Shown: positions 9,616-37,079 of the stretch, one piece after another | How the letters are laid out: the number at the start of each line of letters is the position of its first letter | Numbering within the stretch: position 1 is the stretch's first letter | Assembly (NCBI GenBank): GCA_026225255.1 | Contig: JAMFSJ010000043.1 | Coordinates: 87,597 to 151,596, forward strand | DNA length: 64,000 bases | Origin: Methylacidimicrobium fagopyrum | Lineage (GTDB): Bacteria > Verrucomicrobiota > Verrucomicrobiia > Limisphaerales > UBA11358 | Reading direction: 5' to 3' | Position numbers and translations under genes: made by a program | The notes under the pieces: model-generated | What the model saw: only the letters and a program-made list of their open reading frames with translations | The model's database searches: none | What the model was told of the DNA's origin: nothing

Positions 9616-11235
9616 ATGTTTTCATGGCGCATGGTTTCGTGCGTGATTTTTGAGGATGAACATCTGCTGGTGGTTAACAAGCCCGCCGGTTGGAACACGC
9701 ACGCGCCCGGACCGCACGCGGGCGAAGGTATCTACGACTGGCTGCGATCGCGCGAATCACATTGGTCATCGCTCGCCATTTTGCACCGGCTCGATAAGGA
9801 AACGAGCGGCGTAATTATTTTCGGCAAAACACCACTCGCGAATCGTTCGCTGACGGAACAATTCACCCAACGCCACGTTCAAAAAAAATATCTTTTGCTC
9901 ACCGATCGCGCCGTGCCGCCAAAAGAATTCACGGTGAAAACGACGTTGGTTCGCATCGGTGAAAATTATGCGAGCCGGCCCGGCGGCGAAATGGCGGAAA
10001 CGAAATTCACGCCGATCATTGATGCTAAATTCGGAAATTCAAAATTGAAAATGGTGAGCGTGGAGCCGTTGACCGGACGCACGCATCAAATTCGCGTGCA
10101 CGCGGCGGAAAGTGGTTTTCCGATTTTGGGCGATACGCTTTACGGCGGCACGGCATCGTCGCGCGTTTTTTTGCACGCGGGTGAAATCACCTTCACCCAT
10201 CCGGCCACGAATGCGCCGGTAAAAATTTTTGCGCCGGTGCCGTTTGATCAAGCGCCGCGACTGGCTTTGCGTTCGGCCATCATCGAGCCAGATTTAACCA
10301 ATGCGTTTCGCGTGATTCACGGTGCGAGCGATGGCTGGCCGGGTTGGTTCGTGGAAAAGCTTGGTGATTTTTTGCTGTCGCAAGCGGATGCGCCGTTGAA
10401 CGCGCAGCAAAGCGAAGAGTTATCGTCGCTCGCCAAAACGTTCGCCGTTCGCGGTGCGTATCACAAAATTCTTTCACGCCACGTCCGTCGCTCGAATACG
10501 ACGGAAGCCTCCCCGCAATTGGTTTTGGGCGAAGCGGCGCCGGAACGATTTGAGATTTTGGAAAATGGCGTTCGTTACGAAATGAGTTTTAACGAAGGCT
10601 ATTCCGTCGGGCTATTTTTAGATCAACGCGATAATCGCCGGCGTTTTTTGGCGAATCATGTCGCGGCGGACTTTGAGTTGCTGAATTCAAAACTCATAAC
10701 TCATAACTCAAAACCAGAAGTTTTGAACACGTTTGCCTACACCTGCGGATTCTCCGTTTGCGCCGCGAAGGTGGGCGCGCGGGTAACGAGCCTTGATCTC
10801 TCTAAAAAATATCTCGAGTGGGGCAAACGCAATTTCGCGCTGAACGGTCTCGATCCGGCGGCGCATGATTTTATTTTCGGCGACACGTTTGATTGGTTGC
10901 GGCGGCTGGCGAAGAAAGGGCGCGCGTTTGACGTCATCGTGCTCGATCCACCGACGTTTTCGCAGTCGAAGGATCACGGCACGTTTCGCGCGGATAAAGA
11001 TTACGGCAAACTCGTGACCGCTGCGTTATCCGTGCTCAAGCCGGGTGGCGTTTTGCTCGCCTCCACCAACGCTGCCGAGTGGCCGCCGGAAGAATTTCTC
11101 GCGGATGTGGAAACGGCCATTCACGGCGCGAAGCGAAAAATTTTGCAAAAACATTACGTCCCGCAACCGCCGGATTTTCCAATCAGCCGTGACGAACCGG
11201 CGTATCTAAAAACAGTGTGGCTAAAAGTAGCTTGA
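9616..11235 (+). CDS. RluA-family pseudouridine synthase fused to a class I rRNA methyltransferase (RlmI/RlmK-like)
   Basis: About 539 residues with two RNA-modification domains. The N-terminal part (about 8-225) is an RluA-type synthase: EDEHLLVVNKPAGWNTHAPG, catalytic Asp in HRLDKETSG (about residue 60), and GRTHQIRVHAAESGFPILGD. The C-terminal part (about 240-539) is a SAM-dependent methyltransferase, with FNEGYSVGLFLDQRDNRR, SAM-binding NTFAYTCGFSVCAAKVGA and catalytic-loop DPPTFSQSKDHGTF, as in 23S rRNA m5C1962-type enzymes. Together they would modify two rRNA or tRNA bases. The frame is open from 9496, but that stretch overlaps the decayed minus-strand genes, so ATG 9616 or 9631 is the likely start. 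Two 7-bp-periodic tracts (10034-10054 and 10684-10711) lie in frame between conserved blocks. Confidence 0.88.
   Translation: MFSWRMVSCVIFEDEHLLVVNKPAGWNTHAPGPHAGEGIYDWLRSRESHWSSLAILHRLDKETSGVIIFGKTPLANRSLTEQFTQRHVQKKYLLLTDRAVPPKEFTVKTTLVRIGENYASRPGGEMAETKFTPIIDAKFGNSKLKMVSVEPLTGRTHQIRVHAAESGFPILGDTLYGGTASSRVFLHAGEITFTHPATNAPVKIFAPVPFDQAPRLALRSAIIEPDLTNAFRVIHGASDGWPGWFVEKLGDFLLSQADAPLNAQQSEELSSLAKTFAVRGAYHKILSRHVRRSNTTEASPQLVLGEAAPERFEILENGVRYEMSFNEGYSVGLFLDQRDNRRRFLANHVAADFELLNSKLITHNSKPEVLNTFAYTCGFSVCAAKVGARVTSLDLSKKYLEWGKRNFALNGLDPAAHDFIFGDTFDWLRRLAKKGRAFDVIVLDPPTFSQSKDHGTFRADKDYGKLVTAALSVLKPGGVLLASTNAAEWPPEEFLADVETAIHGAKRKILQKHYVPQPPDFPISRDEPAYLKTVWLKVA
10034..10054. repeat. Degenerate heptanucleotide tract in coding sequence
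   Basis: Three consecutive 7-mers, GAAATTC, AAAATTG and AAAATGG, lie in frame within the pseudouridine synthase domain, at residues GNSKLKMV. Confidence 0.5.
10684..10711. repeat. Heptanucleotide repeat tract in coding sequence
   Basis: Four 7-mers in a row: AATTCAA, AACTCAT, AACTCAT, AACTCAA. They encode NSKLITHNSK in the linker between the synthase and methyltransferase blocks, and the reading frame is unbroken. Confidence 0.75.
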
Positions 11236-11279
11236 TGCGCGGCGGCATTTCCGGCCGATTGAAAATCATTTTTCGCGAT

Positions 11280-14200
11280 TCATTCTTCCGCCACCGGCGC
11301 GGCAGGCGAACCTTCCCAGCGCGTCGCCGCGGGCAGGCGTTCGCCTTTGGTAACCAGTGTGAGCGGACCGAGCTGCACGCGATCGCCGACGTGCGTGTCG
11401 TAGAGAATCGTCGTGCGCGTTCCGATGGTCGTTTGCGCGCCGATTTCGACCTGGCCAATTTTCATCACGCGATCTTCAAACAAATGCGTTTGCGGACCGC
11501 ACCACGCGTTCAATTCCGCTTCGTCGCCGATGCGCACGCAATCGAATTCAGTCAGATCAGTGGTGTTCAAATAAACGCCTTTCCCAATTTTTGCACCGAG
11601 CAGCCGCAGCGCCCACGGCAACATCGGCGTGCCGCGGAGGATGTCTAAAAAATTTGGCACAGCGAGCGATTCATACAAATTTGTAACGGCTTCGCTGAGC
11701 CAAACGAACGGGGTCCACATCGCGCGCGCACAGGGACGATAACGTCCGACCAAAATCCATTTGAGTGCGACCACGAGTAGAAAAGACGCGAGCCCATACA
11801 AACAGCCGGCGACGGAAAGGGCGGCGGCCACTTCGATGCCCCAGCCATTTTCCGACGCCAGCGGCATCACCAAAATGACAATCAAATAACCGGTGGCAAT
11901 CACCAGCGCCAGCGGCAGAACGATCCGTAAACCTTCGATGAGACCACGCGCCACCCGCCGCCACTGTGAGGGCCGGAACGTTAGCGAGGCGGGAAATCCC
12001 GTCAGACATTCGCGCGCGGGCAACCGCATAGCGGGCGAACCAATCCACGTCTGGCCGGATTTGAGTTGCGCATTGTCGGGCGTGCGCGTTTGCACGCCGA
12101 TCAAAACATCGTCCGGCACGTTCGCCCCGCTTTGAACGTAAGCGCCGTTGCCGACGAAGGAGCGGTTGCCGATTTTCGTCCGCTGCAAAATCATCCAGCC
12201 GCCGCGCTGTTCTTCGTCGCCCAACATCGCACCATCGGCGATAAAACTGTCATCGCCCAACTCCAGCAATTCGGGCGTCATGCCTTCAGCAGTGGAAACT
12301 TCGGCGTGACGACCCACTTTAACCCCCAGAAAACGCAGCCACATCGGCGCAAACACAGAGGCGTAAATTCCGTGCAGCACTTGCAGACTATGATCCAAAA
12401 TCAAGCTGGTGAATTTTTTCCGCCAGAAAGCGTAGCTGTGAACCGACCAGGTGCCCGCGCGCTGGCGCGGCAAAATCCATCGCAACAATCCGGTTAACAA
12501 CGCCGTCAGCGCCACAAACAAAGCGCTGGCCGGAATCGCCAACATTAGAAATAGACCGTAGGCAAAAAGCAGATTGAAATCCGAATCAAAGACATCGGTG
12601 GTGTTCGCGTCAATCCAATCAATCAACATGAAGGCGGGAAAGCAGGGCAGAAAAAACAAGACCGAGCCGGCGATGGCCGTCGCGCCAAACAATGCCGCTT
12701 GCGCCCAGCGCCAGCCGAACCAGAGTTGCGGACGCGGCGGAAGTTCTTCGCGCGATTGCGGCACCCGGCGTGCGGGTGCGCCGTCCCAAGTTTCATCGTC
12801 GGGAATTTTCCGGCCGGCCGCTAACGCGGATTGGCCGCACAAATGCGCCCGTTGCCCGAGTTCTGTGTCGTTTTCTAAAACCGCATACGAATCTACGCCC
12901 GAATCGCGTCGCAGTTGAACGGGGCCGATGTGCAGCCTGCCTTTTTCGACGCGTGCGTTTTCGATGTTCACAAACGTCCCGATCGTAACGCCATCTTCGA
13001 CCGTGAGCAGTTCAGGCACGCCTAAAGTGATGTTATCAATCATCACGTTCCGGCCGATGCGGGCACCGAGGGCGCGCAAATAAATGGGCATCCACGGCGT
13101 GCCGGCGAGTAAATGATCATCCGGTAATTCGCAAAATTTGCTGGCCAGCCACCAACGAAAATAAGTGACGCCCCACAACGGATAACGCCCGGCTTGCAAC
13201 CGGCCGGCCACGAGCCATTTGCCCGCAATGGCCACGGGAAAGAGCGCGAGTTGAATCAAGACGAAGGTTCCCAACGAATATAAAACCGCCCGCAGAATAG
13301 TGTCACCGGGATCGCCGGTGTAATAATTATAAACAAAAAACGGTGCGAGCCAGTCCGCGATGTGCAACAAAATCAGCAGCGGAATAACCACGGCCTGGGC
13401 GAGTCCGCAAAAAAATCGCCGGCGTAAAGGAGTCGCGGCGCGCAACGTGGTTGCCGATTTTTTCCGACGACGTTGCTGCGCCATCACGCGGGCGATGCCG
13501 GCCAGTTGACGTTCGCGATAAATATCCTGCACGCTCAACGAAGCGTAGCGTTCGTCCGCACGCAGAATGGAAACCAACCGCGCCGCGAGCAGTGAATGGC
13601 CACCGAGGTCATCAAAAAAGTTCGCCGCCGGTTGCCAGCTGCAGCCAGGGAAAATTTTTTGCAGCGCAGAAAAAAGAATTTTTGCCTCCTCATCCGCCGG
13701 CACGTTTTGTTCGCCATCGCTGGTTTGCGCCAAATTGAGCGGCGCAACGCGTAAGGCGTTTAAATTAATTTTACCGGAGGTGAGGCGCGGCAATTCATTC
13801 ACCAATTCAAAATGCGCCGGAACCATATAAGACGGCAGTCGCGCTGCCAGTGCGTGCCGTAATTTTGACCGCTCCACGGTTTGATTTCCGAGGGGCACAA
13901 TGAATCCAACAATCTGATCCGTTTCCGCCAGCGAGCGAACCACCGCCGCCGCGGCGCCAACGCCTGGCTGATCTGTGAGGGCGGCGGTGATTTCATCCAG
14001 TTCCACTCGGAAGCCGCGGATTTTCACCTGACTGTCGGCGCGACCGAGGCAGTGCACCGCGCCATTGGCGGCGATGCGTGCCAGATCGCCCGTGAGATAC
14101 ATGAGCCGTTCGCCGGGATTTGCCGCGAGCGGATTGGCGATAAATTTATCCGCCGTCAAATCTGGCAATCCGAGATAGCCGGTCGCCAGCCCGGGCCCAA

Positions 14201-15302
14201 AAATGCATAACTCGCCAACTTCGCCCAACGGCAGTGGACGTCGCTGCTCATCAATAATCACTAGTCCGTAATTGGGCAGCGGCGTGCCGATCGTTACCGG
14301 CTCGCCGCGTTTCAATTCCGCCAGCGTCGCCGTCACGGAAGTTTCCGTCGGCCCGTAAGTGTTGAAAACTTTTCGACCCGATTGCACTAATTTTTGCGCG
14401 AGCAAATCGGGACAGGCTTCGCCGCCGAGGTTGATTAACCGCAATCCCGCCAGCGGATTGTCCATCAAACTTACCAACGTCGGCACGGCGTGCAGCACCG
14501 TGATTTTTTCGCGCGCTAACGTTTTCGCCAGCAAATCAGGATCGCCGACGAGCGTGGGTGGCGCGATCCAAAGCGTCGCACCGACGAGATAGGAAATCCA
14601 AATTTCCTCAAACGACATGTCGAACGCCACCGAGAAGCCTTGATAAACCTTGTCCGTTTCGCGCACGCCGAGAATCTCATTTTCGCTGCGGAGGAAATGG
14701 CAGATGCCGCGCTGACTGATGATAATGCCCTTGGGTTGCCCCGTGGAACCGGAAGTGTAAATTACATAAGCCGCATCCGCAGGTTGCGACCGGACCCGAA
14801 GCGAAGGTGATTGTTTATCCGCCAACAAATCTTCCAACGCCCACGCTGGCACTTTTAATTCGGCTAGTCGCGGCAACCATGCACGGCAAGTTACCAGACC
14901 GATAGCGTGGGCAGATTGCAGACAAGTGTTGATCCGTTCCAAAGGCGTTTCGGCGTCAAACGGCAGCCAAGCCGCTCCGCTTTTTGTAATACCCGCTTGG
15001 GCAATCAATAAATCTGCGCCGCGTGGCAGAAATAATCCCACGACCGAACCCACAGCCGCGCCGCGCGAAAACAACGCATCTGCCATCGCGTTGCTGATCA
15101 CGTCCAGTTCGCCGTAGGTGACAACTTGTTCACCCCAGATCAACGCCGGTTGCTGCGGAACCCGCTGCGCGGTGGCGGTGAGAATTTCAGCCAGACATTC
15201 AGCGCGAATCAAATTAGGACGGATTGCGCCGCGCAGGACCGCTGGATCTGCTGCCGCAGCGACGGAGACACCGTCGTCATTCTTCTGAGTAATGGCTGCC
15301 AT
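11280..15302 (-). CDS. Pls/PosA-type non-ribosomal peptide synthetase
   Basis: A 1340-residue single-module enzyme. Residues about 25-520 are an adenylation domain with YTSGSTGQPKGIIIS, NTYGPTETSVTA, YLTGDLAR and GRADSQVKIRGFRVELDE. Residues about 540-615 are a peptidyl carrier domain with the phosphopantetheine Ser in DLGGHSLLAARL. From about 640 to the end lies the membrane-embedded terminal region typical of the Pls/PosA family: several hydrophobic segments alternating with left-handed beta-helix acyltransferase-like repeats (for example GARIGRNVMIDN and GAKIGKGVYLN). There is no condensation or thioesterase domain. Known members make isopeptide homopolymers such as epsilon-poly-L-lysine or gamma-poly-diaminobutyrate; which amino acid is used here cannot be read off. 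No tailoring genes are adjacent. ATG start at 15302. Confidence 0.88.
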   Translation of the reverse strand: MAAITQKNDDGVSVAAAADPAVLRGAIRPNLIRAECLAEILTATAQRVPQQPALIWGEQVVTYGELDVISNAMADALFSRGAAVGSVVGLFLPRGADLLIAQAGITKSGAAWLPFDAETPLERINTCLQSAHAIGLVTCRAWLPRLAELKVPAWALEDLLADKQSPSLRVRSQPADAAYVIYTSGSTGQPKGIIISQRGICHFLRSENEILGVRETDKVYQGFSVAFDMSFEEIWISYLVGATLWIAPPTLVGDPDLLAKTLAREKITVLHAVPTLVSLMDNPLAGLRLINLGGEACPDLLAQKLVQSGRKVFNTYGPTETSVTATLAELKRGEPVTIGTPLPNYGLVIIDEQRRPLPLGEVGELCIFGPGLATGYLGLPDLTADKFIANPLAANPGERLMYLTGDLARIAANGAVHCLGRADSQVKIRGFRVELDEITAALTDQPGVGAAAAVVRSLAETDQIVGFIVPLGNQTVERSKLRHALAARLPSYMVPAHFELVNELPRLTSGKINLNALRVAPLNLAQTSDGEQNVPADEEAKILFSALQKIFPGCSWQPAANFFDDLGGHSLLAARLVSILRADERYASLSVQDIYRERQLAGIARVMAQQRRRKKSATTLRAATPLRRRFFCGLAQAVVIPLLILLHIADWLAPFFVYNYYTGDPGDTILRAVLYSLGTFVLIQLALFPVAIAGKWLVAGRLQAGRYPLWGVTYFRWWLASKFCELPDDHLLAGTPWMPIYLRALGARIGRNVMIDNITLGVPELLTVEDGVTIGTFVNIENARVEKGRLHIGPVQLRRDSGVDSYAVLENDTELGQRAHLCGQSALAAGRKIPDDETWDGAPARRVPQSREELPPRPQLWFGWRWAQAALFGATAIAGSVLFFLPCFPAFMLIDWIDANTTDVFDSDFNLLFAYGLFLMLAIPASALFVALTALLTGLLRWILPRQRAGTWSVHSYAFWRKKFTSLILDHSLQVLHGIYASVFAPMWLRFLGVKVGRHAEVSTAEGMTPELLELGDDSFIADGAMLGDEEQRGGWMILQRTKIGNRSFVGNGAYVQSGANVPDDVLIGVQTRTPDNAQLKSGQTWIGSPAMRLPARECLTGFPASLTFRPSQWRRVARGLIEGLRIVLPLALVIATGYLIVILVMPLASENGWGIEVAAALSVAGCLYGLASFLLVVALKWILVGRYRPCARAMWTPFVWLSEAVTNLYESLAVPNFLDILRGTPMLPWALRLLGAKIGKGVYLNTTDLTEFDCVRIGDEAELNAWCGPQTHLFEDRVMKIGQVEIGAQTTIGTRTTILYDTHVGDRVQLGPLTLVTKGERLPAATRWEGSPAAPVAEE

Positions 15303-15466
15303 GCTTATAATATTCGCACCCTAAGGCAAAACGTCTGCCAGATTGGTCCGGTGGTTTTCAACTACAAGGACGTTGCAATTATCAACAAGGTAACGCTGTT
15401 AGAATGGATTGCGGTTAGGATAGTTTGACCGGCCTAAGTCGGAGCGTTTTTTCAAAATACTATGGG

Positions 15467-16489: not shown

Positions 16490-16565
16490 TATGGAATTAT
16501 TGAGGGGGAAAGATTTTAGTTCAAGCATCCGAACTACTTTATTCGTCACCGGGCAACGCTGGAAA

Positions 16566-16592
16566 TTAGCCAGCTACGAAGTGGCTGGTTAA
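16566..16592. repeat. Intergenic palindrome between GH43 and PEP-CTERM genes
   Basis: Nearly perfect inverted repeat TTAGCCAGC...GCTGGTTAA around a short loop, lying between divergent genes. It could be a dispersed repeat or an operator; nothing in the sequence decides between them. Confidence 0.45.
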
Positions 16593-16701
16593 TCGGAAAA
16601 TGATTTACGTCCTGAAGCAACGGGGTTAGTCGGCAATTTCAAATCTTGTTTTCGAAGGTATTTTAATTCATGGTTGATGGGCTAATTAAAACTCCTGAAA
16701 C

Positions 16702-17744: not shown

Positions 17745-20700
17745 CTAAATTGCCAGCAACAGTCGCTTAATTTCCTTCAACCGCGCCTTCGCATCCTTCT
17801 TCGTGAGTCGCGGGAATTTTCCGCTGAACATGATGAAATCGTTGTGGCGCGTGATCTTTAATTTATCTTCGTCCACTTCGATGACGGTCACGGCTTTTTC
17901 GCTGGCAAGAATTTTCAGTTCACCAATGGCGAGCAATAATTCCACCGGCGGCGGCAACGGGCCGAAGCGGTCGCGCAATTCTTTTTGCAACGCGTCCAAC
18001 GCGGGCTTTTCGTTCGCTTGTGCAAGCTTGCGATAAATCTCAATGCGATGATGCGGTTCGGTGATGTAATTTTCAGGCAACGAAGCGTGAGCGGTCAGGC
18101 CTGATGTTTTTCCAACTTCGCGCCCGTCGCTTACCGCCTCACGACGCGCATTCATCTCCAGAAAATCCAGCGCGACGCGGACTTCCACGCGCGGTTTCAC
18201 TTTCTTGCCTTTCAAAGCACCGACGCTTTGCTTGAGCAACTGACAGTAAAGTTCGAAGCCGACGGCGGTGATGTGACCGCTTTGTTCCGCGCCTAAAAGA
18301 TTGCCCGCACCGCGAATTTCCAAATCGCGCATCGCGATCTTAAATCCACTGCCGAGCGTGGAATATTGCTTTATCGCGCTGATGCGTTTGCGCACATCGG
18401 TGAGCAGACGCGCGTGACGCGGCAACAGCAGATACGCGAAAGCCTGATGCTTGTAGCGCCCAACGCGACCGCGCAATTGATACAGTTCGCTTAAGCCAAA
18501 ACGGTCGGCGCGATCGATGATGATCGTGTTCGCATTCGGAATATCGAGGCCGCTTTCAATGATGGTCGTGGACAGTAAAACGTCCGCTTCGCCGTTGATG
18601 AATTGCGTCATCACTTCTTCCAGATCGTCCGCATTCATCTGGCCGTGACCGACGACGATGCGCGCTTGCGGCACGAGCGATTTTAATTTCGCCAGCATCG
18701 TATCAATCGTCGTCACGCGGTTGTGCAGAAAAAAAACCTGGCCGCCGCGATTCATTTCACGTTGGATCGCGTCGCGGATCGTGCGTTCGTCATAAGGCGT
18801 GGCAATCGTCTCGACGGGCAAACGATCGTGCGGCGGCGTCTGGATCGTGCTCATGTCGCGCGCGCCGGTGAGCGCGAGATAAAGCGTGCGCGGAATCGGC
18901 GTTGCGCTCAACGTCAGCACATCCACCATCGTGCGCAGACGTTTGAACTTTTCCTTGTGCATCACGCCAAAACGTTGTTCTTCGTCAATAACGACGAGGC
19001 CCAAATCTTTGAACGCAATATCGTCCTGCACGATGCGGTGCGTGCCGATAACGATGTCCACCGCGCCCGCCGCGAGTTCTTCCACAACGCGCGCCTGCTC
19101 GCGCTTGGTGCGAAAACGCGAGAGCAATTCCACGCGCACCGGATAATCCGCCATACGATCGCGAAAATTATTAAAATGTTGCTGCGCCAGAACGGTGGTC
19201 GGCACGAGGATCGCCACCTGTTTGCCGTCCATCACGCACTTGAATGCGGCGCGGATCGCAACTTCCGTTTTGCCAAAACCCACGTCGCCGCAGATCAAAC
19301 GGTCCATCGGCTTGGGGCGTTCCTGATCAGCCTTGGTCTCGGCGATGGCCGTGACTTGATCGCGAGTTTCCTCATAGATAAAGGCGCTTTCAAACTCGCG
19401 CTGCCATTGCGTATCCGGTTTGCACGCGTGGCCGACCTGCGTATCGCGCACGGCCTGGATGCGCAAAAATTCCGCCGCGACATCGCGCACGGATTTTTCT
19501 GCATGCTCCTTGGCTTTGTGCCAACGCGTGCCGCCGAGCGTGTTGAGCGGCGGATTCGCCTTGCCCGCGCCAACGTATTTGCTGACGAGATGCGCCTCGC
19601 TGACGGGCACGTAAAGTTTCGGCGACTCATCGCCAAAATTCGCAGGCGCGTATTCGATGACTAAACATTCCGTTTCCGCTTTCCGCTTTCCGCTTTCCGC
19701 TTTTCCCGCCGTGGTCTCGAGGTTTTTTAATCCGAGATAACGTCCGATGCCGTGTTGCAGATGCACGACCAGATCGCCTTCGTCCAAATCCGTGAAATCA
19801 ATGTCCAGCGCCGAACGGGCGGCCTGTGCGTGCGACGATTTTAATCGGCGCGGACGTTGGATTTTATAACGTCCGAAAATTTCCGCATCCGTGACGACGA
19901 CCAGCTTCGCTTCATCGCAAATAAAACCGCGGGCAAGCGAGCCGAGTTGGATTTGAGGTTTTGCGTCGGAAATTTTGGGCTTGGATTTTTTATTGCCCGA
20001 ATCTTTCTCACCATCCGAGCTGCCAGCCGCCAGTCCCAATTCAGTCCAAATTTCCTCAAAGCGTTGCTTCTCCCCGTCGTTGTTGCAAAAAACGTGGACG
20101 GCATAATCCTGCCGCAGCCAGCGGTGCAGTTGCTGGAAAAATTCGCGCCGCTGCGCCTCGGCGATTTGCGGTTCCGGCGCGCGTTCAGCCAGCGGACGGA
20201 AGGCGTCGAGCGAGGAAAACAATGGAGTGATCAACTGTGACCCGGTGGGGTGAGCGTCCTCGCGAGCCGCTACGGGCATTAAGTCATCATTTTCCGACGG
20301 CTCGCCGGGAGTCTCGCCCCACCCAATTTGTGGTTGGGGTATTTCATCATCCACCAATTCCACCGACGTAAAACCGCGACGATTTAAATCCGTCAAAAAA
20401 TCCGGCCATGAAATAAAGAACGGATCGTCCTTGGGGATTTGTTGGGCATACATTTCCGCATGAATGGCCAGCGATTCTGGTTCACATAAAATGAAAATCG
20501 TTTCACGCGGCAGGTAATCCAGCAAAGTGACTAGTGGATGGCTATTAGCTGAGTCTTCGACATTCTGACTCTTGGCTTCTGAATTCTGAATTCTATTTTT
20601 AAGAATTCCCAATTCGCCCGCCGGCGGCAAAATGATGGCCGTGATTTCTTCGCGTGAAATTTGCGTGAGCGGATCGAAATAACGCAATGATTCCAGTTCA

Positions 20701-21401
20701 TCGCCAAAAAACTCCAAACGCACCGGCCACGGACTGGTCGGTGGAAAAATGTCCACGATGCCGCCGCGCAAGGCGATTTCGCCTTTCTGTGACACTTGCG
20801 CTTCCGGTTCGTAACCCTGCGTTTCTAGAAATTCAATCAGGTCAAGCGGCGCGATTTTTTCGCCGCGTTGCAACGGACGCAAACGGCTTTTCAGATCGTC
20901 CGGCTCGAAGGTTTTTTGCAGCAATGCCGTAAGGTTCGTAACGATGATCTGAGATTGGCGATTTGAAATTTCAGAGGGAGCTGAAAGCGCGATGAGCGTT
21001 TCCAAACGGTCGCTGATGACATCGGCATGCGGCAATTTACCTTCATGCGGCAGGACTTCCCAAGCGGGATAAAAGGCCTGGTTGAAGGTTGAAGGTTGAA
21101 GGTTGAAGGTTTTTTTGGCGTCCGCTTCAACGGGCAAGACGGAATCTGCCTGCCGCCACGTTTCTAAATCTTGTTGAAAACTTTCCTGAGTTTTTAGATT
21201 TTCCGCGACGAGGACAATCGGGCGTTGGGGAAATTGTTTTTGCAGCAGCGCGGCAAAAAAGGGCTGGGCTGGCGCGGTGATGCCGGAAAAAGTCAGCGCG
21301 CCGCCAGCCTCCACGCGCCGCACAAGGGCTTGCACGGCGGGAGTTTTCAGGATGTCAGCGAACAGTTGGCCGGTCGCTGAAACGGATTTTGAGGGCGACA
21401 A
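17745..21401 (-). CDS. mfd: Transcription-repair coupling factor Mfd
   Basis: Removes stalled RNA polymerase and recruits UvrA to lesions. The 1218 residues comprise a UvrB-like N-terminal module, the RNA-polymerase interaction region ([20 protein letters not shown]), RecG-like helicase motifs ([53 protein letters not shown]), DADVLLST-like motif [16 protein letters not shown] and a TRCF C-terminal domain. It is longer than usual because in-frame inserts encoded by 7-bp repeats interrupt variable positions (at 19673, 20562, 20946 and 21081). The apparent start is TTG at 21401 ([12 protein letters not shown]); no ATG fits better. It ends 15 bp from the truncated yoeB. Confidence 0.95.
19673..19700. 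repeat. Perfect heptanucleotide repeat (TTTCCGC)4 inside mfd
   Basis: Four perfect copies of TTTCCGC in mfd. On the coding strand they specify AESGKRKAE, a basic insert just before the conserved CLVIEYA strand. The frame is kept. Confidence 0.9.
20562..20596. repeat. Degenerate heptanucleotide tract inside mfd
   Basis: Five 7-mers: ATTCTGA, CTCTTGG, CTTCTGA, ATTCTGA, ATTCTAT. They encode an insert around [10 protein letters not shown] in the N-terminal UvrB-like module. Confidence 0.75.
20946..20973. repeat. Degenerate heptanucleotide tract inside mfd
   Basis: Four 7-mers: GATCTGA, GATTGGC, GATTTGA, AATTTCA. They encode [10 protein letters not shown] in a loop. Confidence 0.65.
21081..21108. 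repeat. Perfect heptanucleotide repeat (GTTGAAG)4 inside mfd
   Basis: Four perfect copies of GTTGAAG near the 5' end of mfd, followed by a T-run. They encode [10 protein letters not shown] on the coding strand. Confidence 0.9.
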
Positions 21402-29292: not shown

Positions 29293-29293
29293 T

Positions 29294-30537: not shown

Positions 30538-31984
30538 TTGCGCCTCCATTGCCATATTGAAATTCCACTGAAAATTGCATCGGCGCCTTGCCGCGCACCT
30601 GACCCCAATGAAAGTTACTCACGCCCGGCAGTGACTGCAGCTTGGACTGCATCGTAATCAGCGCCATGTTATCCCGCGCCGTGCCGGAACAATTCACCGT
30701 GTTGCCATCATGGATCTCGATCGTCTTCGCCGTCACCGAACCGTCTTCGGGAAACGCCACCGTTACTTCTTTCAAGATCGTCAATGCGCTAAACGACGTG
30801 TCATACCATGGACGAAATTGCCGGATATTATTTTGCACCGCTTGCAACTGCCCAACGTGGGCTTGCATTTGCGACCACTGCGAGCGCAGCCGCAGCAATT
30901 GATATTGCTGGAACAAAAAGAATAAAATCACGATCGCGGCGAGGGCCGCACCAATCATGCCCGCCGAACCTAAACGGCCGGATGAATATTTTTTGACCGC
31001 CTGCTCGATGACCGACGGCTTCGGCGGCAAAAACTCCATCCACGGTGACGATTCCGTCAATGCCCGCGCCGCTAAACTGAACGCGGCGGAAATCGTGATC
31101 CCCGGCGGCAGCGTGGCGGAAAATTCATTCAACGCGTAAGCCGTGACGAGTTCCACCTTCAAACCCAGCGGCTCAAAACGCAATTCCATTTCGTCCACGA
31201 GCGGCTGCGCCAATTCGCGCGAACCAAAAATACGGATGCGTTTTACGACGTCGCGCACTTCAGCGGGTAACTGGCCGAGCGTGACGCGGGCCTCGCGCGT
31301 GACGACATCCGCGTGCAAGCTGCGCCGGCTGTTCTCCGTGGTCACCGTGCCTTCCAACGCGCGCAACGCAGCGATGCCGCCGCCCGCCGTAATTTGCAGA
31401 CCCACGTTATTTTCGCCGATGACGAGCGCGAGCACGCCATTTGTTTTTTCATTACCCGGTGATTGCAGCGCCGAAATTCCCAGCGCAAAACTGATCGGCT
31501 TCAATTTCGCCGCCGCCAAAACTTTTTCAAGCGCGCTGATCTGCGGATGGGGAATGCCCGCGAACAAAACGTATTTTTTATCCGCCGCCAACGGCGTGCG
31601 TGAACCGGCGATTTGCAACGTCGCCACGTCCGATGAAAAACCGCGCTCGGCTTCCATCTCCAGCAAACTCGCCGCGTCAGCGTCCGGCAACGACGGCAAT
31701 TCGGTGTGCGCCGTCAAAACCCATTTCAGCGGCACGCCCACGATGCAATCACGCACGCGCACACCCGCCGCGTCGAGTTGATTGCGAATTTCGCGGCCCG
31801 CGAGTTCCGGCGTAGCGGTGAGCGGATCGAGCGTGAGCGCAACGGAAAAAGTTTGCAACGGTGACAACGCGCCGTTCGCGCGGCGCAGCACCACGCCCTC
31901 AAGCTTTTGGCCGTCGAACGCGAGCCCGAGCAGCGTCGCCGGAATTTTTCGTTTGGGCGAAGTGAATTTAAAATCAGGTTTCAT
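30527..31984 (-). CDS. gspL: GspL-type protein (PilM-PilN-like fusion)
   Basis: 485 residues. The N-terminal two thirds (about 15-320) are an actin-like cytoplasmic domain of the PilM/GspL kind (ATLLGLAFDGQKLEGVVLRR; CIVGVPLKWVLTAHTELPSL; LALVIGENNVGLQITAGGG). After it come a transmembrane helix (SAGMIGAALAAIVILFFLFQ), a coiled coil (LRSQWSQMQAHVGQLQAVQN) and a small periplasmic ferredoxin-like domain, as in PilN/GspL. It links the ATPase GspE to the membrane platform. The ATG overlaps the gspK stop (ATGA), and its 3' end carries the gspM ribosome-binding site. Confidence 0.8.
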   Translation of the reverse strand: MKPDFKFTSPKRKIPATLLGLAFDGQKLEGVVLRRANGALSPLQTFSVALTLDPLTATPELAGREIRNQLDAAGVRVRDCIVGVPLKWVLTAHTELPSLPDADAASLLEMEAERGFSSDVATLQIAGSRTPLAADKKYVLFAGIPHPQISALEKVLAAAKLKPISFALGISALQSPGNEKTNGVLALVIGENNVGLQITAGGGIAALRALEGTVTTENSRRSLHADVVTREARVTLGQLPAEVRDVVKRIRIFGSRELAQPLVDEMELRFEPLGLKVELVTAYALNEFSATLPPGITISAAFSLAARALTESSPWMEFLPPKPSVIEQAVKKYSSGRLGSAGMIGAALAAIVILFFLFQQYQLLRLRSQWSQMQAHVGQLQAVQNNIRQFRPWYDTSFSALTILKEVTVAFPEDGSVTAKTIEIHDGNTVNCSGTARDNMALITMQSKLQSLPGVSNFHWGQVRGKAPMQFSVEFQYGNGGANGN

Positions 31985-33354
31985 TGCATATTATTCGCGA
32001 GCGTGGTTTGCCGGACTTTATCGCCGAGCGCCCAGCCGAGCCGGCTCAAGTCTTGTCGATAAATAATTTTTGGCGTGACGTCGCTGATATCAAAAATAAA
32101 TTTCACGCGCCGGTAGCCGCGCCCGTAAGCGCCGACCGCCGCGATGTCCGCCGTGAATTGAAAACTTTTCGTCGTGAGATAATCGCCGCCTTGCAATAAT
32201 TTTAGCGTGGCATTGCCGGTGCCGAGCGCGTCATAAACCCAGCCGATGGAATTGAGCATCGTCGAATTTTGACCGCGATACGTGATGAGCGTCTGCGCGT
32301 CGGCGTCGGCTTGTTGTTCATTGCCACTGTTCAAACCCATGAACAACGCGGTCAACACATCTTCGTTCGCGGTGTTCACATTGACGCGCCCGTAAATGTA
32401 GATATTCGTGGTCGTCGTGATGTTCGTATAAACATTGGCGAAATCGGACGCGCTCATGCCGGAGTTGCGACAACGCACGGCGAAATCAACCAGGCCTTTG
32501 CAAGTATTCGCGGGGGCGTTATTGGGGGGATGAATGTTACCGTAAATCGTTTTCCCCATGGCCGTCGCGCCGCTGACATTGGCACTTTGAAACACGGATT
32601 GAAAATCGGTTTGCGTCAAAGTATTCACATTCGTCAGCAGCGTGCCGTCGGAATGAAAATTCGGTTCGCGCGTGTAAACGGTAGTGTAATCGATCAGTCC
32701 GGAATTTAATTGGCCGGTGCCGGTCGTATCTTTTTCATTCGCGTCGAGCACGCCGTTGCGGTTCAAGTCATCGCCGGAAAGCAAATTAATATCCGCGCCG
32801 GAAACGAGTCGCAGTTCGTCCACGGTTTCAAACGGCGCATTTTTCGGGGAGTAACCGAGGGACGCGTAATCCAGCGAAACAATGCCGTTCGTGCCGCGCC
32901 AATCCAAGATCGCATCCGCAAAATCAATCGTCATGTTCGGCAGATACGAAAGCGCGTTGGTGTTGGCGTAATTGAGATTTAATTTCGAGCCTTCGTCAAT
33001 CAAGCCAAAATGGATGTTGTTCGGATCATCGCCATTCGGGTTGCGACCGATGATCCAATAATGCGCGTCACCGACGGCCACATTTTCGCAGGAAAAATTG
33101 GCGTTGGTCGGGAACACGCCGTTCGTCGTATAATTCGCGAGAAAATAACTGACGTAACGTTGCGCGCCCGCGATGGCTTGCTCAGCGGAAATGCCGCTGA
33201 CGCGATTATCCGCCGCGCGCAATTCGTAAGCCATCGAGTTCGCAAAATACAGCGAGATGGTCACAAGACCGAGGCAAACCCACAACACGATAACGAGCAC
33301 CGAGCCGCCATTGCGGGCGGCTCGCGGCGTAGAGGCTTGAGGGGTGATTTTCAT
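31981..33354 (-). CDS. gspK: Type II secretion minor pseudopilin GspK
   Basis: 457 residues. The N-terminal pseudopilin helix is GGSVLVIVLWVCLGLVTISL, with the leader KITPQASTPRAARN before the GG-S processing site, then a large alpha-domain region of the GspK type (NRVSGISAEQAIAGAQRYVS; DEGSKLNLNYANTNAL; VDELRLVSGADINLLSGDDL). GspK caps the pseudopilus tip together with GspI and GspJ. Like other GspK proteins it lacks the Glu at +5 found in major pilins. It starts 1 bp after the gspJ stop. Confidence 0.88.
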   Translation of the reverse strand: MKITPQASTPRAARNGGSVLVIVLWVCLGLVTISLYFANSMAYELRAADNRVSGISAEQAIAGAQRYVSYFLANYTTNGVFPTNANFSCENVAVGDAHYWIIGRNPNGDDPNNIHFGLIDEGSKLNLNYANTNALSYLPNMTIDFADAILDWRGTNGIVSLDYASLGYSPKNAPFETVDELRLVSGADINLLSGDDLNRNGVLDANEKDTTGTGQLNSGLIDYTTVYTREPNFHSDGTLLTNVNTLTQTDFQSVFQSANVSGATAMGKTIYGNIHPPNNAPANTCKGLVDFAVRCRNSGMSASDFANVYTNITTTTNIYIYGRVNVNTANEDVLTALFMGLNSGNEQQADADAQTLITYRGQNSTMLNSIGWVYDALGTGNATLKLLQGGDYLTTKSFQFTADIAAVGAYGRGYRRVKFIFDISDVTPKIIYRQDLSRLGWALGDKVRQTTLANNMQ

Positions 33355-33355
33355 C

Positions 33356-34051
33356 TCAAGCTCCCGTCGTGGTGGTTGCCGTCAGCACGGCGTTCGTGCG
33401 GGCGATGGTTTCAATGGGCACCACGATTTCAATGGGCTGCGCGGCGGCATTGCCCACCATCTGAATATCCACGCGCACGGCGACCGGCAGGTTCGTGTTG
33501 ACCGAAGCCTGACTCGTCGTGTCCCATGTGGCATTCCAAAGAGCGCCGTCGTAACAGGAAAATTTAATGCTCTGCACGCCGCTCAACACGAGTTGATCGT
33601 CCACGTCCGGCGTGGTCGTGCTCAATAAATTCCGCGTCACCGTGCGATACAGATCGCGTCCGTCCGCGCCCATGGTGGCGGGCGCTTTCAATTCATACGT
33701 CACGCGCTGGACATCGCCCCAGGGCAAATTATCGCTCAACGCGCCGCTCGCCGTGCACATTTCGATCGAGACCGGTTCGCTGCTGCCGGTGCTCACGATA
33801 TCGCCCACGCGAAAGCCGCCGGACAAAACGGCGGTGGGCGAAGCATTGGTCGGCGCGACGCAATTTTGCAGATCGCGCTTCAAAAAATTCACCGCGAAAT
33901 CAACCGGCGACGCGGCATCCACCGTTTCCGCCGTGGCCTGACGCAAATTCAACGCGGCGAACAAAACGGAATTGATCACGACCAACACCAGCGCGGAAAT
34001 GCCGATGGCGAGGAGCATTTCAAGCAACGTGAAACCCGGTGCGCCGCGCAT
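33356..34051 (-). CDS. gspJ: Type II secretion minor pseudopilin GspJ
   Basis: About 232 residues from ATG 34051. A very short leader MRGAPG is followed by the prepilin motif FTLLEMLLAIGISALVLVVI and a beta-rich minor-pseudopilin body. The frame is open more than 90 codons upstream across the gspI 3' end, but that stretch is not conserved in character, and part of it is a REP-like palindrome reading RRALPGKRDSGRA. The start is therefore uncertain: the short leader is unusually basic-poor, and a longer one through the palindrome is possible. Confidence 0.78.
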   Translation of the reverse strand: MRGAPGFTLLEMLLAIGISALVLVVINSVLFAALNLRQATAETVDAASPVDFAVNFLKRDLQNCVAPTNASPTAVLSGGFRVGDIVSTGSSEPVSIEMCTASGALSDNLPWGDVQRVTYELKAPATMGADGRDLYRTVTRNLLSTTTPDVDDQLVLSGVQSIKFSCYDGALWNATWDTTSQASVNTNLPVAVRVDIQMVGNAAAQPIEIVVPIETIARTNAVLTATTTTGA

Positions 34052-34072
34052 AGCCCGGCCCGAATCTCTCTT

Positions 34073-34089
34073 GCCGGGCAATGCCCGGC
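34073..34089. repeat. REP-like palindrome at the gspI-gspJ junction
   Basis: GCCGGGCAATGCCCGGC, flanked by AGCCCGGCCCGAA (34052-34064). It matches the element at 29891-29956 in order and core sequence. It lies in the 59 bp between the gspI stop and the gspJ ATG. Confidence 0.7.
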
Positions 34090-34110
34090 GCGTTGATGTT
34101 TTGCCACTAT

Positions 34111-34602
34111 TCAAAATTGTGAACCGGTCGTTGTGCTGGTCGCTTGCGCTTGCGGGCTGGCCAGCGTGCTCATTTTTACCGAGTAATCTTTGCCTTGAGC
34201 GGAATATTTTACTTCCGCCGTGATCAATTGCATTTGGGCCACCGGATCTTGCGACCAAACCTGACTCGCCAACGTCCAGCGAAAATCCAAGGTGCCCTCG
34301 GTGATCGTGCCGCTCCGCGCGCTCATCCAATTCGTCGTCACGATGCTCTCGCTCAAAACCCGATCCGCCACCCGAGCCGCCTCGCTCTTGCGGGCCGCGA
34401 CTTCGCCCGCCAGGCTCGCGACGTGCAACACTTCCACCGCCGCTGGAATCACGATGGCCAAAAACAGTAACGCGGCTAAAACCTCCGCCAGCGTGAAACC
34501 ATTTTCGATCGCCGATTTTCGATCGCCGATTGAAAAAAACTTTCGGCGTAGGCGACCACGGCCCTCGATCCTCGGCAATTTATTTGCGGTCGCTATTTTC
34601 AT
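34111..34602 (-). CDS. gspI: Type II secretion minor pseudopilin GspI
   Basis: 163 residues. A long leader of about 35 residues ends in ENG, before FTLAEVLAALLFLAIVIPAA, with Glu at +5. The body is short, with VADRVLSESIVTTNW and SAQGKDYSVKMSTLAS, typical of GspI. The leader is lengthened by a heptanucleotide tract (34501-34535) encoding SIGDRKSAIE directly before the cleavage site. It overlaps the gspH 3' end by 23 bp. Confidence 0.8.
   Translation of the reverse strand: MKIATANKLPRIEGRGRLRRKFFSIGDRKSAIENGFTLAEVLAALLFLAIVIPAAVEVLHVASLAGEVAARKSEAARVADRVLSESIVTTNWMSARSGTITEGTLDFRWTLASQVWSQDPVAQMQLITAEVKYSAQGKDYSVKMSTLASPQAQATSTTTGSQF
34501..34535. repeat. Heptanucleotide tract in the gspI leader
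   Basis: Five 7-mers: ATTTTCG, ATCGCCG, ATTTTCG, ATCGCCG, ATTGAAA. They code for the residues just before the prepilin cleavage motif. Confidence 0.75.
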
Positions 34603-35152
34603 AACCTGTGCGGTTCCGCATTTCCGTCAATATCTGAGTGAAACCATCACCGTCCGCCAATTGCACCGTTTGCGGACTGCCTTCATCAATCGTGCCGTCC
34701 GGCAAAAAACGGATCGCCGGCATACTCTTAAACGTCGTTTGCGTGCCGGTGCCGAGATTCATCACGGCGATTTTCAACGTGTCGTCCACGGATAAATTTT
34801 CCGCTTTTGCATCGCCGGCTTGACCGGTCGTTTCCAGCGTGACGCCGTATTGACCGTGCGGCGCGTCGATCCACAATATCACCGGCATCCCTTCGGAAAC
34901 GGCGCGACTTTGCGCTTCGTGCATCAACGCCAGCAACCGCGCTGACTCGGAACCCAATGCCCGGCCGCGGATAAACCGCGACATCGTCGGCAACGCCATG
35001 GACGTGATGATCACCAGCAACGCGAGCACCAAAATCAGTTCGATCAACGTGAAACCGTTTGCGTGCCGCCAGACGCGTGGTGCGTGACAAGGCTTTTGCG
35101 CACGCGTTTTTTGCGCGTCACTTGTCATTCGCCACTCGTCACATTTTTTCAT
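34580..35152 (-). CDS. gspH: Type II secretion minor pseudopilin GspH
   Basis: About 190 residues. A leader of about 32 residues (MKKCDEWRMTSDAQ and so on) ends in HANG before FTLIELILVLALLVIITSMA, with the +5 Glu. A GspH-type body follows (ARLLALMHEAQSRAVSEGMP; IRFLPDGTIDEGSPQTVQLA). ATG 35152 overlaps the gspG TGA (ATGA), which decides the start. The leader contains heptamers GCGTCAC, TTGTCAT, TCGCCAC, TCGTCAC (35115-35142, plus-strand reading). Confidence 0.85.
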   Translation of the reverse strand: MKKCDEWRMTSDAQKTRAQKPCHAPRVWRHANGFTLIELILVLALLVIITSMALPTMSRFIRGRALGSESARLLALMHEAQSRAVSEGMPVILWIDAPHGQYGVTLETTGQAGDAKAENLSVDDTLKIAVMNLGTGTQTTFKSMPAIRFLPDGTIDEGSPQTVQLADGDGFTQILTEMRNRTGYENSDRK

Positions 35153-35643
35153 TTCGCCCAACTGACAACGTCATCGTCCGTGCCTTCTTTACCATCTGGC
35201 CCGGCCGAAAGCAGATCGTAGGAACCGGCCGCGCCGTGTTTGCCCGGAAAATAATAGATGTAAGGATTAAGCCACGGATCAATCGGCAATTTGTCCAAAT
35301 ACGGTCCGTGCCAATTCTTCGCATTGCCCGGCGCGACGATCAAATCTTGCAAGCTGTGCGGATACGCGCCCATGTCCACTTCGTAATTGCCGAGCGCGGA
35401 TTTGATGCCGCCGTTGATGTCCGCGCCGGCCGTGATCAGACGCGCGCGTTCGCCGCTGCCCGCGATGCGCGGAATAACCAACGCCGCGAGAATACCGATG
35501 ATGACGACGACCAACATTAACTCCGTGAGCGTGAAGGCGGATTGGCAATGCGTGACGAATGACGAAGGGCGCGTGAGCGCACGAACGTTTCGTCCGCCAC
35601 GGGTCATCCGCGATTTGTCACTTTTATTAATTTCGATTTTCAT
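35149..35643 (-). CDS. gspG: Type II secretion major pseudopilin GspG
   Basis: 164 residues. A long leader (about 36 residues) ends in CQSA before FTLTELMLVVVIIGILAALV, so the residue at -1 is Ala instead of Gly; Glu +5 is present. The body has the GspG hallmarks INGGIKSALGNYEVDMGAYP, QDLI, WHGPYLDKLPIDPWLNPYIY, YFPGKHG and the calcium-site end DLLSAGPDGKEGTDDDVVSW. It builds the pseudopilus shaft. The leader again carries 7-mer tracts (GTGACGA, ATGACGA at 35552-35565). It sits between gspF and gspH. Confidence 0.92.
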   Translation of the reverse strand: MKIEINKSDKSRMTRGGRNVRALTRPSSFVTHCQSAFTLTELMLVVVIIGILAALVIPRIAGSGERARLITAGADINGGIKSALGNYEVDMGAYPHSLQDLIVAPGNAKNWHGPYLDKLPIDPWLNPYIYYFPGKHGAAGSYDLLSAGPDGKEGTDDDVVSWAK

Positions 35644-35656
35644 AAATTTGTGATTT

Positions 35657-36892
35657 TTATTTAATGTTTGAACTCATGGTCAGCACCGGCAACAACATGC
35701 CGATGAAAATGGTGCCAATGAAACCGGCGATCAAAAACAGTAACAACGGTTCGGCAAACGCGACAGCGGTTTTCAGATTGCGATCCAGATCATTCTCCGT
35801 GACCGTTGCGATGCGGATCAATTCCACGTCGAGCCGGCCGCTTTCTTCGGCGACCGAAACCATTTCCAAAACCGAGCTGGGGAAAAGATATTTCGCATCC
35901 GCCAAACTTTGGCCGAGGCGACCGCCTTGCTGCACGCGTTCGATGGATTGCGAAACGGCGTCCACGAGAATCTGATTGCCGATGGAGCGGCGCGCGACGT
36001 TCAAGCCATAAACGAGCGGCACACCCGCGCCGATCAACGTGCCGAGCATCCGGCAAAAACGCGCCATCGCAAATTGCGCGATGAGCGGGCCGACGAGCGG
36101 CGATTTCAGAATCAAACCTTCCCAAACGCGCTTGCCCTTTTCAGAAACAAACCACGTCCGCACCATGAAACCGATGATGAATAATCCGCCCGCGACGAAA
36201 ATGCCATACGAACGCACCGTGTGGCTGACCGCGATGATGACTTGCGTGAGCAGCGGCAACTGGCTGTGCATGTTGTCGAAAATGCCTTGGAATTTTGGGA
36301 TGAAAAACGTCAGCAACAAAATCACCACGCCGATGGCGAGGAACAATAAAATGCACGGATACAACGCCGCCGTGAGCACTTTTGATTTCAATTCTTTTTC
36401 GCGCTGTTGAAATTCGGCGATCTGCGCGAGCACGACATCAAGAAAGCCGCCGGCTTCACCCGCTTCAACCATCGCGACGTAAACGCGCGGAAAGGTTTCG
36501 GGCGAACGCGCCATGGCATCCGCCAACGATAAACCGTCCACGACGAGGCCGTTGATTTCTTTCCACTTTGCGCGTGCGGCGGTGGAAGAAGCTTCTTTGC
36601 AAAGGATCGTCAGCGCGCGACTCAACGGCACGCCCGCCGCGAGCAAACTGGAAAGCAGGCGCGTGAAATTTTCCAGTTCCTTGCCGGAAACTTTTTTGGA
36701 TTCGAACTTGAAGGAAAAACCTTTCGCCGCCGCTGCGCCTTTTTTCTTGGCCGAAGCACTTTCCGAAACGTTCACCGGACGCAGGCCGAGAATCTCGATC
36801 TGCCGCAAGGCGTCCGGGCGTCCGGGCGCATCAATCACGCCTTCGGCAATCTTGCCGTTGGCCTGCAGTGCGCGATAGGAAAAGGTGGGCAT
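35657..36892 (-). CDS. gspF: Type II secretion inner-membrane platform protein GspF
   Basis: About 411 residues from ATG 36892 (MPTFSYRALQANGKIAEGVI). Two GspF domains, KELENFTRLLSSLLAAGVPL and FCRMLGTLIGAGVPLVYGLN, alternate with transmembrane helices (SKVLTAALYPCILLFLAIGV-type near the middle; LLLFLIAGFIGTIFIGMLLP at the end). It is the polytopic core that GspE turns over. An ATG nine codons further up exists but adds no family-like sequence. Confidence 0.92.
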   Translation of the reverse strand: MPTFSYRALQANGKIAEGVIDAPGRPDALRQIEILGLRPVNVSESASAKKKGAAAAKGFSFKFESKKVSGKELENFTRLLSSLLAAGVPLSRALTILCKEASSTAARAKWKEINGLVVDGLSLADAMARSPETFPRVYVAMVEAGEAGGFLDVVLAQIAEFQQREKELKSKVLTAALYPCILLFLAIGVVILLLTFFIPKFQGIFDNMHSQLPLLTQVIIAVSHTVRSYGIFVAGGLFIIGFMVRTWFVSEKGKRVWEGLILKSPLVGPLIAQFAMARFCRMLGTLIGAGVPLVYGLNVARRSIGNQILVDAVSQSIERVQQGGRLGQSLADAKYLFPSSVLEMVSVAEESGRLDVELIRIATVTENDLDRNLKTAVAFAEPLLLFLIAGFIGTIFIGMLLPVLTMSSNIK

Positions 36893-36898
36893 GAGATT

Positions 36899-37079
36899 AA
36901 AAGCTCCAAACACCAACATCCAAGCACCAGAGAATGTTCAAATACCAAACATCAAAACGAAATGCATCACTCAAAGCGGGTTGATGATCACCACCCATTG
37001 TAAACCAAGCGCGCACTGCCCGATTGGAGTTTGAAGCTTGATGCTTCTCTGGTGCTTGGATGTTGGAGCTTGGATGTTT
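36899..37079. repeat. Heptad-periodic inverted repeat between gspE and gspF
   Basis: The left arm 36899-36935 and right arm 37040-37079 are inverted complements over about 30 bp (CAACATCCAAGCACCAGAG against CTCTGGTGCTTGGATGTTG). Each arm is a chain of 7-mers: TTGAAGC, TTGATGC, TTCTCTG, GTGCTTG, GATGTTG, GAGCTTG, GATGTTT on the right. They flank a 100-bp unremarkable spacer. The transcript would fold into a long hairpin inside the operon. Confidence 0.75.

Follow-up and report, generated by a model that had tools for sequence, protein, structure and literature searches.

The genome of Methylacidimicrobium fagopyrum contains conserved genes that have taken up short tandem repeats of seven bases without losing their reading frame. 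The region analyzed here (the window) is a 64,000-nucleotide stretch of GenBank contig JAMFSJ010000043.1, positions 87,597 to 151,596, and forms part of contig C75 of a 79-contig, 3.92-Mb draft genome (G000). The names we use for its open reading frames (ORFs), namely mfd, an RluA fusion and a GspG-like gene, are the labels of an initial annotation. What makes tracts that share a period and differ in their unit, and how do they come to lie inside such genes? The initial annotation ascribed them to one common mechanism that makes or inserts period-7 DNA rather than to a mobile sequence. A single shared cause agrees with our results, which favor, however, a mobile element: a short sequence bounded by inverted heptamer arms that, in full form, includes a gene of family PF05635 (23S_rRNA_IVP; hereafter IVP). 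In our judgment the tracts are probably the arms, or arm remnants, of widespread small inserting elements whose full form holds an IVP gene, and the tracts of the window would be members without an ORF or with a single arm, inserted in frame.

IVP genes lie between inverted heptamer arms

The repeat (TTTCCGC)3 occurs at nine distinct places in the genome when matched exactly and at 17 when up to three mismatches are allowed (34 overlapping matches), and the backward control returned none. On contig C18, two such arrays face one another around a small ORF, which a Pfam search identified as one of the five PF05635 genes of the genome. All five copies exceed the curated cut-off, and all are flanked by inverted heptad tracts when judged by eye (4/5 by our arm threshold). 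The family is also present in 82 of 97 relatives. Of 35 IVP loci taken, six were dropped at contig ends; in the 29 that were usable on both sides, base identity at lag 7 peaked just outside the IVP gene (0.43 and 0.45 vs 0.25), with no comparable peak there at lags 4-6 or 8-12.

The same pattern extends far beyond the relatives. A scan of 84,980 species genomes gave 580 matches, and the best 80 of these, taken as named loci, cover 15 phylum-level groups, including two Methanophagales loci. In these 80 loci, the share of bases identical at lag 7 reached 0.34-0.45 in the stretch 20-150 bp upstream of the domain and 0.37-0.47 in the stretch 20-100 bp downstream; past 200 bp it was 0.24-0.26, and lag 14 echoed the signal. 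With one query protein, no IVP match was found in 50,697 phage records. Pooling these 29 loci, the 80 broad loci and 11 plasmid loci (L196 and L199 were dropped as near-duplicates of L197 and L198) yielded 120 loci, of which 98 have at least one arm and 74 have both. A lag-7 tract lay within 170 bp of the IVP gene upstream in 84/119 and downstream in 88/120 cases, compared with 40/1265 far windows, and at lags 5, 6, 9, 10 and 11 only 0-5 windows beside IVP genes passed.

Each IVP locus has its own heptamer, inverted across its two sides. The upstream unit and the inverted downstream unit agreed at 6.05 of 7 bases within a locus, as against 3.71 between loci and 3.38 when the downstream arm was read directly. 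The arms also vary in form. Inverted arms with 8- or 9-base units surround the IVP gene in Granulicella (L144), Muribaculaceae (L180) and Flavobacterium (L172). In Pseudanabaena galeata (L207) they are very long, with more than 10 copies of an AAAAGCT-type unit on one side and a GGCTTTT-type unit on the other, an array expansion. A pairing constraint acting on the RNA was considered and rejected: across 100 loci, arm mismatches were not enriched for sense-strand G-U wobble (135 vs 181). The opposite excess would be expected from A-rich upstream arms, given that AG, AT and AC each outnumber their mirror classes; these mismatches thus give no RNA signature either way.

The heptamer unit follows the IVP subtype

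Unit similarity tracks IVP protein similarity (Mantel r 0.20, reached in 0/2000 permutations). Among pairs from different phyla, which are non-independent, at least 6 of 7 unit bases were shared by 19/60 at 55% protein identity or more, 27/285 at 50-55%, 119/1977 at 40-50% and 63/1600 below 40%. For example, one IVP subtype and its unit are common to two loci of the order to which the genome belongs (L089 and L103) and three cyanobacterial loci (L200, L220 and L221). Tracts inside genes carry the same units: at the mfd loci of relatives, 14/57 in-gene tracts match an IVP-arm unit exactly, compared with 2.1% of random heptamers from those loci, and in the window 3/9 units do (TTTCCGC, GTTGAAG and TGACGAA), compared with 2.9%. 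Judged by these sequence comparisons, the heptamer unit appears to belong to the element, and the units would differ from tract to tract because different IVP subtypes carry different heptamers. Within the genome itself the comparison of IVP units with tandem heptamers was sparse, the 31 classes found in a 265-kb sample (described below) being nearly all singletons.

Occupied and empty sites

Comparison of closely related plasmids reveals the element as an insertion. In plasmid C of Trichormus variabilis, a 423-bp IVP element has GTAAT on either side; three plasmids that are 97.6-98.4% identical to it are uninterrupted at this point, with a single GTAAT. At the same site, Brasilonema carries an ORF-less hairpin whose unit is of the same type, and a tract with a single arm is present in Nostoc C052. 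One site thus shows four states: empty, full, miniature and one-armed. The same element (416-419 bp, 78-82% identity) recurs in plasmids of Aulosira and Nostoc, at sites unrelated to this one. One Nostoc plasmid family shows two insertion positions: in L221 an element separates genes A and B, in L225 a different one separates genes B and C, and L224 lacks both.

CRISPR loci provide further comparisons. In both Anabaena 90 and Pseudanabaena galeata an IVP element separates cas6 from cas4, and Nostoc UHCC 0302 has none there; another lies between cas10/cmr2 and cmr3 in Picosynechococcus PCC 7003 and is absent in PCC 7002. In Dolichospermum UHCC 0315A, the cas6-cas4 gap (L204) holds a different palindromic insert, GTAGGTTGGGTT...AACCCAACCTAC, where Anabaena 90 has its IVP element, which makes this gap a repeated target.

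IVP genes are oriented with their neighbors

Strand calls from the longest ORFs could be attempted at 95/109 loci with sufficient flank. Where both neighbors were called and lay on one strand, the IVP gene was sense in 43 loci and antisense in 1 (L084, a copy from the M. fagopyrum genome); the neighbors were on opposite strands in 5, and 46 were uncallable on one or both sides. In the annotated plasmid loci, IVP was co-directional with both neighbors in 12/12. The arms are polarized as well, with G exceeding C in the upstream unit in 63 loci, C exceeding G in 10 and both equal in 11. ORF-less hairpins in mfd hint at the same bias, 9/10 of those with a skew having the same coding-strand polarity, at sites that are common to relatives. 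Dependence on a host promoter could account for the sense bias of the gene, but not for the polarity of the mfd hairpins, for which coding constraint and shared site ancestry are other explanations.

Such co-directionality is also what would be seen if IVP were an ordinary operon gene and the heptads served in its regulation, or were bound by a regulator of translation; a translational regulator has been proposed for the TAACTGA heptamers discussed in PMC4679880. This account is at odds with the presence or absence of the whole arm-IVP-arm unit in near-identical plasmids, with the recurrence of one element type at unrelated sites and with neighbors as unrelated as cas, tra and integrase genes. 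It also leaves the in-frame mfd hairpins unexplained, and we hold it to be the least probable of the accounts considered here.

Tracts of the window

We scored runs of base identity at lag 7 against 4000 random 90-bp windows drawn from the same 64 kb, the tracts themselves included. The initial annotation had listed at least ten tracts of consecutive 7-mers, with a period that is always seven. The tracts are real, and uneven: of 11 positions tested, six are clear (reached by <1% of random windows), three are weak, one is at chance and one is a 14-base repeat, so the uniform period was an overstatement. Four tracts are far above chance (10684, 19673, 20577 and 21080) and those at 10034 and 37040-37078 are moderate, the latter with a lag-7 score of 8.5 (<1% of random windows). 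Scores at 35115, 35552 and 36899 are weak (2-5% of random windows). The run at 20946 is no better than chance (12% of random 90-bp windows), and 34501 has no lag-7 signal (26%) and a perfect 14-base unit instead. The features are collected in Table 1. The last of them is a pairing that had been missed: arms at 36900-36955 and 37024-37079, 68 nt apart and 77% complementary, which fold as RNA with z = -7.3.

Table 1. Heptad tracts and hairpins of the window, with coordinates in the 64,000-nucleotide stretch
Position	Strand	Feature	Lag-7 score	Inverted partner	Agreement with IVP-arm units
10034..10055	+	Short GAAATTC-type tract, moderate, in ORF 9496-11235	8.5		
10684..10714	+	AACTCAT-type solo tract in ORF 9496-11235 (RluA fusion in the initial annotation)	16.5	not significant (p 0.19)	6 of 7 bases
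19673..19703	-	(GCGGAAA)4, as read on the coding strand, in ORF 17745-21401 (mfd), solo	24	not found (p 0.91)	same as arm unit of the C18 element (L082)
20577..20615	-	TCAGAAT-type tract with short inverted partner, a small hairpin in mfd (initially placed at 20562)	11	short	
21080..21111	-	(GTTGAAG)4 solo tract in the mfd loop where relatives hold other heptads	25	not found (p 0.86)	exact
34501..34531	-	14-base unit ATTTTCGATCGCCG, 2.2 copies, leader of ORF 34111-34602			
35072..35140	-	GTGACNN-type hairpin, arms 20 nt, spacer 29 nt, leader of ORF 34580-35161	6.5 (weak)		
35550..35594	-	TGACGAA-type units with short hairpin, leader of ORF 35149-35643 (GspG-like)	7 (weak)		equal
36900..37079	.	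Hairpin element, complete but lacking an ORF; heptad arms of 56 nt; flanked by ORFs 35657-36919 and 37084-38802			

The prevalence of period 7 over its neighbors depends on where it is measured. In the genome itself, we sampled the window and 12 stretches picked irrespective of tracts (265,189 bp in total) and counted runs scoring at least 14: there were 6 at lag 7, 3 each at lags 6 and 9, and 0, 3, 0, 3 and 1 at lags 5, 8, 10, 11 and 13. This excess is modest. In relatives (58 mfd and GspG loci, 269,634 bp), by contrast, the same cut-off gave 53 runs at lag 7 and 30 at its harmonic, lag 14, and 0 or 1 at each of lags 4-6 and 8-13. The expected advantage of lag 7 over lags 6, 8 and 9 is therefore far stronger in relatives than in the genome where it was noticed.

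Insertions in mfd and GspG of relatives

The mfd gene was matched in 59/59 relatives, and 30 loci were taken from a pool that included M. fagopyrum, best-scoring first. As the initial annotation had supposed for the window, frame is kept: in 30/30 loci the whole match lies in a single open frame, 1089 codons long or longer. Two loops vary in length, both in whole codons. Between QDLETW and FYPAWE (23/30 loci parsed), five relatives have 5 residues and the others 11-38; preceding GSLARGF (29/30 parsed), short forms have 14-15 residues and the longest has 44. In many of the long forms, though not in all, heptads encode the added residues, and the unit varies between genomes. Orthologues show no conservation of these residues, as had been anticipated for strain-specific insertions, and we read the tracts as lineage-specific insertions on the strength of these alignments. 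That the frame is kept across them suggests that the insert stays in the mRNA.

GspG was matched in 40/40 genomes, from which 30 loci were taken. By eye, the leaders carry differing heptad hairpins in two relatives (L234 and L241) and none in most others, and the leader that holds the 35550..35594 tract is missing from the matched part in relatives. Four mfd loci (L053, L069, L077 and L080) contain another in-frame insert, with the translation LTPALSPGERE...LPAGEGQGEGE, which looks like a second, non-heptad palindromic family in the same mfd loop.

Tract density and points against an element origin

We compared tract density with IVP copy number in 26 genomes, using first contigs with N masked and IVP-adjacent tracts removed (15 planned genomes are missing from the set). 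Away from IVP genes we counted 5 tracts in 638 kb of nine genomes without IVP, 26 in 664 kb of eleven genomes with 1-2 copies (15 of these tracts in G090), and 24 in 477 kb of six genomes with at least 5; the means of the control lags for these groups were 3.4, 2.0 and 5.0. Density correlated with IVP copies (Spearman 0.48, p 0.014), and the control lags did not (0.17, p 0.42). Overall, this supports an element origin of the tracts and is not decisive.

Several observations weigh against that origin. The comparison of zero with nonzero IVP genomes gave p 0.10, and one genome in which a single IVP gene was found (G090; L328-L331) has 15 heptad tracts in 70 kb, the second-highest density of the 26. 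The window holds no IVP gene within its 64 kb, and the units of the 36900..37079 hairpin agree with IVP-arm units at only 5 of 7 bases, the random level. Near IVP genes, lag 8 also shows a slight excess (7/119 and 7/120 vs 12/1265 far windows), which fits a few loci with 8-base units. A clean target duplication (5 bp) was read at one of seven compared sites, that of Trichormus; none can be read cleanly at the six others, where bases were lost or exchanged or the flanking sequence has diverged. Finally, unpaired tracts outnumber hairpins inside the 30 mfd genes (53 vs 11), and in the sample from the genome itself an inverted partner was found at p<0.05 for 5/16 tracts, three of these five beside IVP genes.

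The predominance of solo tracts would suit plain replication slippage, in which the polymerase favors heptamers and tracts arise in place, without any element, at whatever sites tolerate them, an idea that PMC4692102 cites from earlier work. Arm copy number does differ between close relatives, such as L198 and L199. Slippage offers no account, however, of clustering beside one gene family, of inverted arms with the same unit, of units shared across phyla with IVP subtypes, or of the insertion of whole elements. For arms beside IVP genes it is already disfavored, and as a general explanation we find it unlikely. Most solo tracts, those of the window included, probably derive from elements instead, a reading that draws on the matches between units and on the single-armed state seen at the Trichormus site rather than on a census.

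The IVP protein and candidate enzymes

A structure model of IVP had a mean predicted local distance difference test score (pLDDT) of 94.8 and a template modeling (TM) score of 0.91 to 2gsc, the four-helix bundle XCC0516; 2rld was also matched. Against Avd, the accessory protein of diversity-generating retroelements (DGRs), both alone (4dwl) and inside the DGR ribonucleoprotein, TM was 0.81-0.84, with Foldseek E values of 0.02-0.1. A sequence search of structures recovered 2gsc and 2rld only. The PF05635 model matches 21/21 aligned IVPs and the Pfam bAvd model reached 10/21, the one displayed being below cut-off. Residues Q34, R37, S41, N45 and E71 (numbering of alignment A1) are invariant among IVPs in that alignment. 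At the sequence level, the kinship of IVP and Avd thus appears weak.

Since Avd partners the reverse transcriptase of DGRs, the heptads might be made by a reverse transcriptase or a telomerase-like enzyme, and the transcript-sense bias of the IVP genes would suit such an origin. An obligatory reverse transcriptase was rejected: RVT_1 was not found in G000 and, among the 31 relatives with a completeness of at least 90% and 5 or more IVP genes, is missing from 15; it is present in 33 of the 97 relatives overall (these are drafts, in which absence is not absolute). We consider this origin very unlikely.

A second candidate is a Y1 transposase (IS200/RAYT-type) that moves the hairpins in trans, as with REP sequences. 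All 31 of the same IVP-rich relatives have at least one Y1_Tnp gene, and on contig C25 of G000 an IVP gene (18815-19033) and a Y1_Tnp gene (20873-21217), one of each, lie about 2 kb apart. The domain is common anyway (85/97 relatives), and of the 12 relatives that lack it 7 still carry IVP, including G053 (89% complete) with seven copies. Y1 enzymes are not known to make a target duplication, in contrast to what is seen at the one clean site. A role for such a transposase seems to us quite unlikely.

A proposed life cycle

The forms found suggest the following scheme for an IVP element. The full form, of about 0.4-0.5 kb, consists of an IVP gene (S23-type four-helix protein, Avd homologue) flanked by two inverted tandem-heptamer arms; a miniature form retains the two arms only, as a hairpin, and a decayed form would retain one arm, as a solo tract. 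Elements occupy gaps between co-directional genes, with IVP nearly always in the sense of its neighbors, or would lie in frame in protein loops and leaders. IVP may recognize its cognate heptamer arms and guide the strand-specific insertion of its own element, and ORF-less copies may be inserted in trans by the same protein. The sense bias could arise from coupling to transcription or from a single-stranded step, and slippage could afterwards lengthen or shorten the arms.

Only tentatively would we extend this to a class of mobile elements of bacteria and archaea that encode an Avd-like protein alone, without a recognized transposase or reverse transcriptase, and that insert in the sense orientation by arm recognition, miniatures included, in trans. 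Much of the heptamer content of prokaryotes could then trace back to such a class, as could the intervening sequences (IVSs) of rRNA genes, and it could be the reason why IVP is linked to CRISPR.

Relation to known systems

The closest known relative is the 23S rRNA IVS. PMC4990558 describes that of Coxiella as 428 nt long, with an S23 ORF preceded by tandem heptamers and excision by RNase III, and discusses its inverted repeats and the hypothesis that it is a remnant of transposition. It shares with our elements an S23/IVP ORF between inverted repeats and its size (428 nt, compared with 423 bp and a 5-bp repeat here). The elements described here differ in lying outside rRNA genes, between or inside protein genes, and in having ORF-less forms that are read in frame. 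The annotated plasmid loci sit between protein genes, and the five loci of the genome have protein-coding surroundings (by eye). Given that the rRNA IVS resembles our element in its ORF, its arms and its length, we regard the element as a genome-wide variant of it rather than as wholly new; the way in which it moves may prove new. IVP ORFs in 16S and 23S insertions of candidate phyla radiation bacteria are reported in PMC11270868.

Short terminal inverted repeats, hairpins and dispersed ORF-less copies are shared with miniature inverted-repeat transposable elements and REPINs, which depend on a transposase acting in trans, whereas the arms here are tandem heptamers that vary by subtype, and the full form, with the same arms, has IVP, which is not known to be catalytic, and no recognized transposase. 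With DGRs, the elements share the fold of Avd and weak sequence kinship, and PMC10053308 notes that PF05635 resembles Avd. They differ in that RVT_1 is lacking in many genomes with IVP, although no search was made for a reverse transcriptase, template or variable repeat beside the elements.

Dispersed tandem heptamers have also been described on their own, in the short tandemly repeated repetitive (STRR) sequences of cyanobacteria, in Beggiatoaceae and in Xanthomonas and Nostoc. The account of TAACTGA in Beggiatoaceae in PMC4679880 leaves its origin open, as does that of GGGAATC and GGGGA(T/C)T in PMC4692102, where inverted pairs are described for Xanthomonas and the heptamers are called generally unassociated with mobile elements. 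The passages of these two papers on heptamers state no link to IVP. Nor was a link between heptamers and IVP outside rRNA genes found in our searches of the open-licence PMC literature; preprints were not covered, and an earlier description elsewhere is possible. The resemblance to cyanobacterial heptamers raised in the initial annotation holds, since IVP loci on cyanobacterial plasmids are flanked by heptads (GGGAACA, TCAGGAG, AAAAGGG and GTGACAG units); these are likened to STRR sequences by type and not by the published units.

Implications

PMC10910872 mentions IVP in the legend of a figure on proteins linked to CRISPR. In our comparison, two plasmids have IVP between cas6 and cas4 and another has it between cas10/cmr2 and cmr3, and for each of the three a relative is without the gene at that position. 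These cases caution against taking the operon or CRISPR neighborhood of IVP genes as a sign of function.

The element connects heptamer repeats that have gone unexplained with PF05635, a common family of unknown function, with the intervening sequences of rRNA genes and with the Avd proteins of DGRs. Mfd shows how a conserved protein goes on gaining loop residues through insertions that keep the frame. More widely, an origin in IVP elements would give the heptamer repeats of many bacteria a common source, one that can be tested directly.

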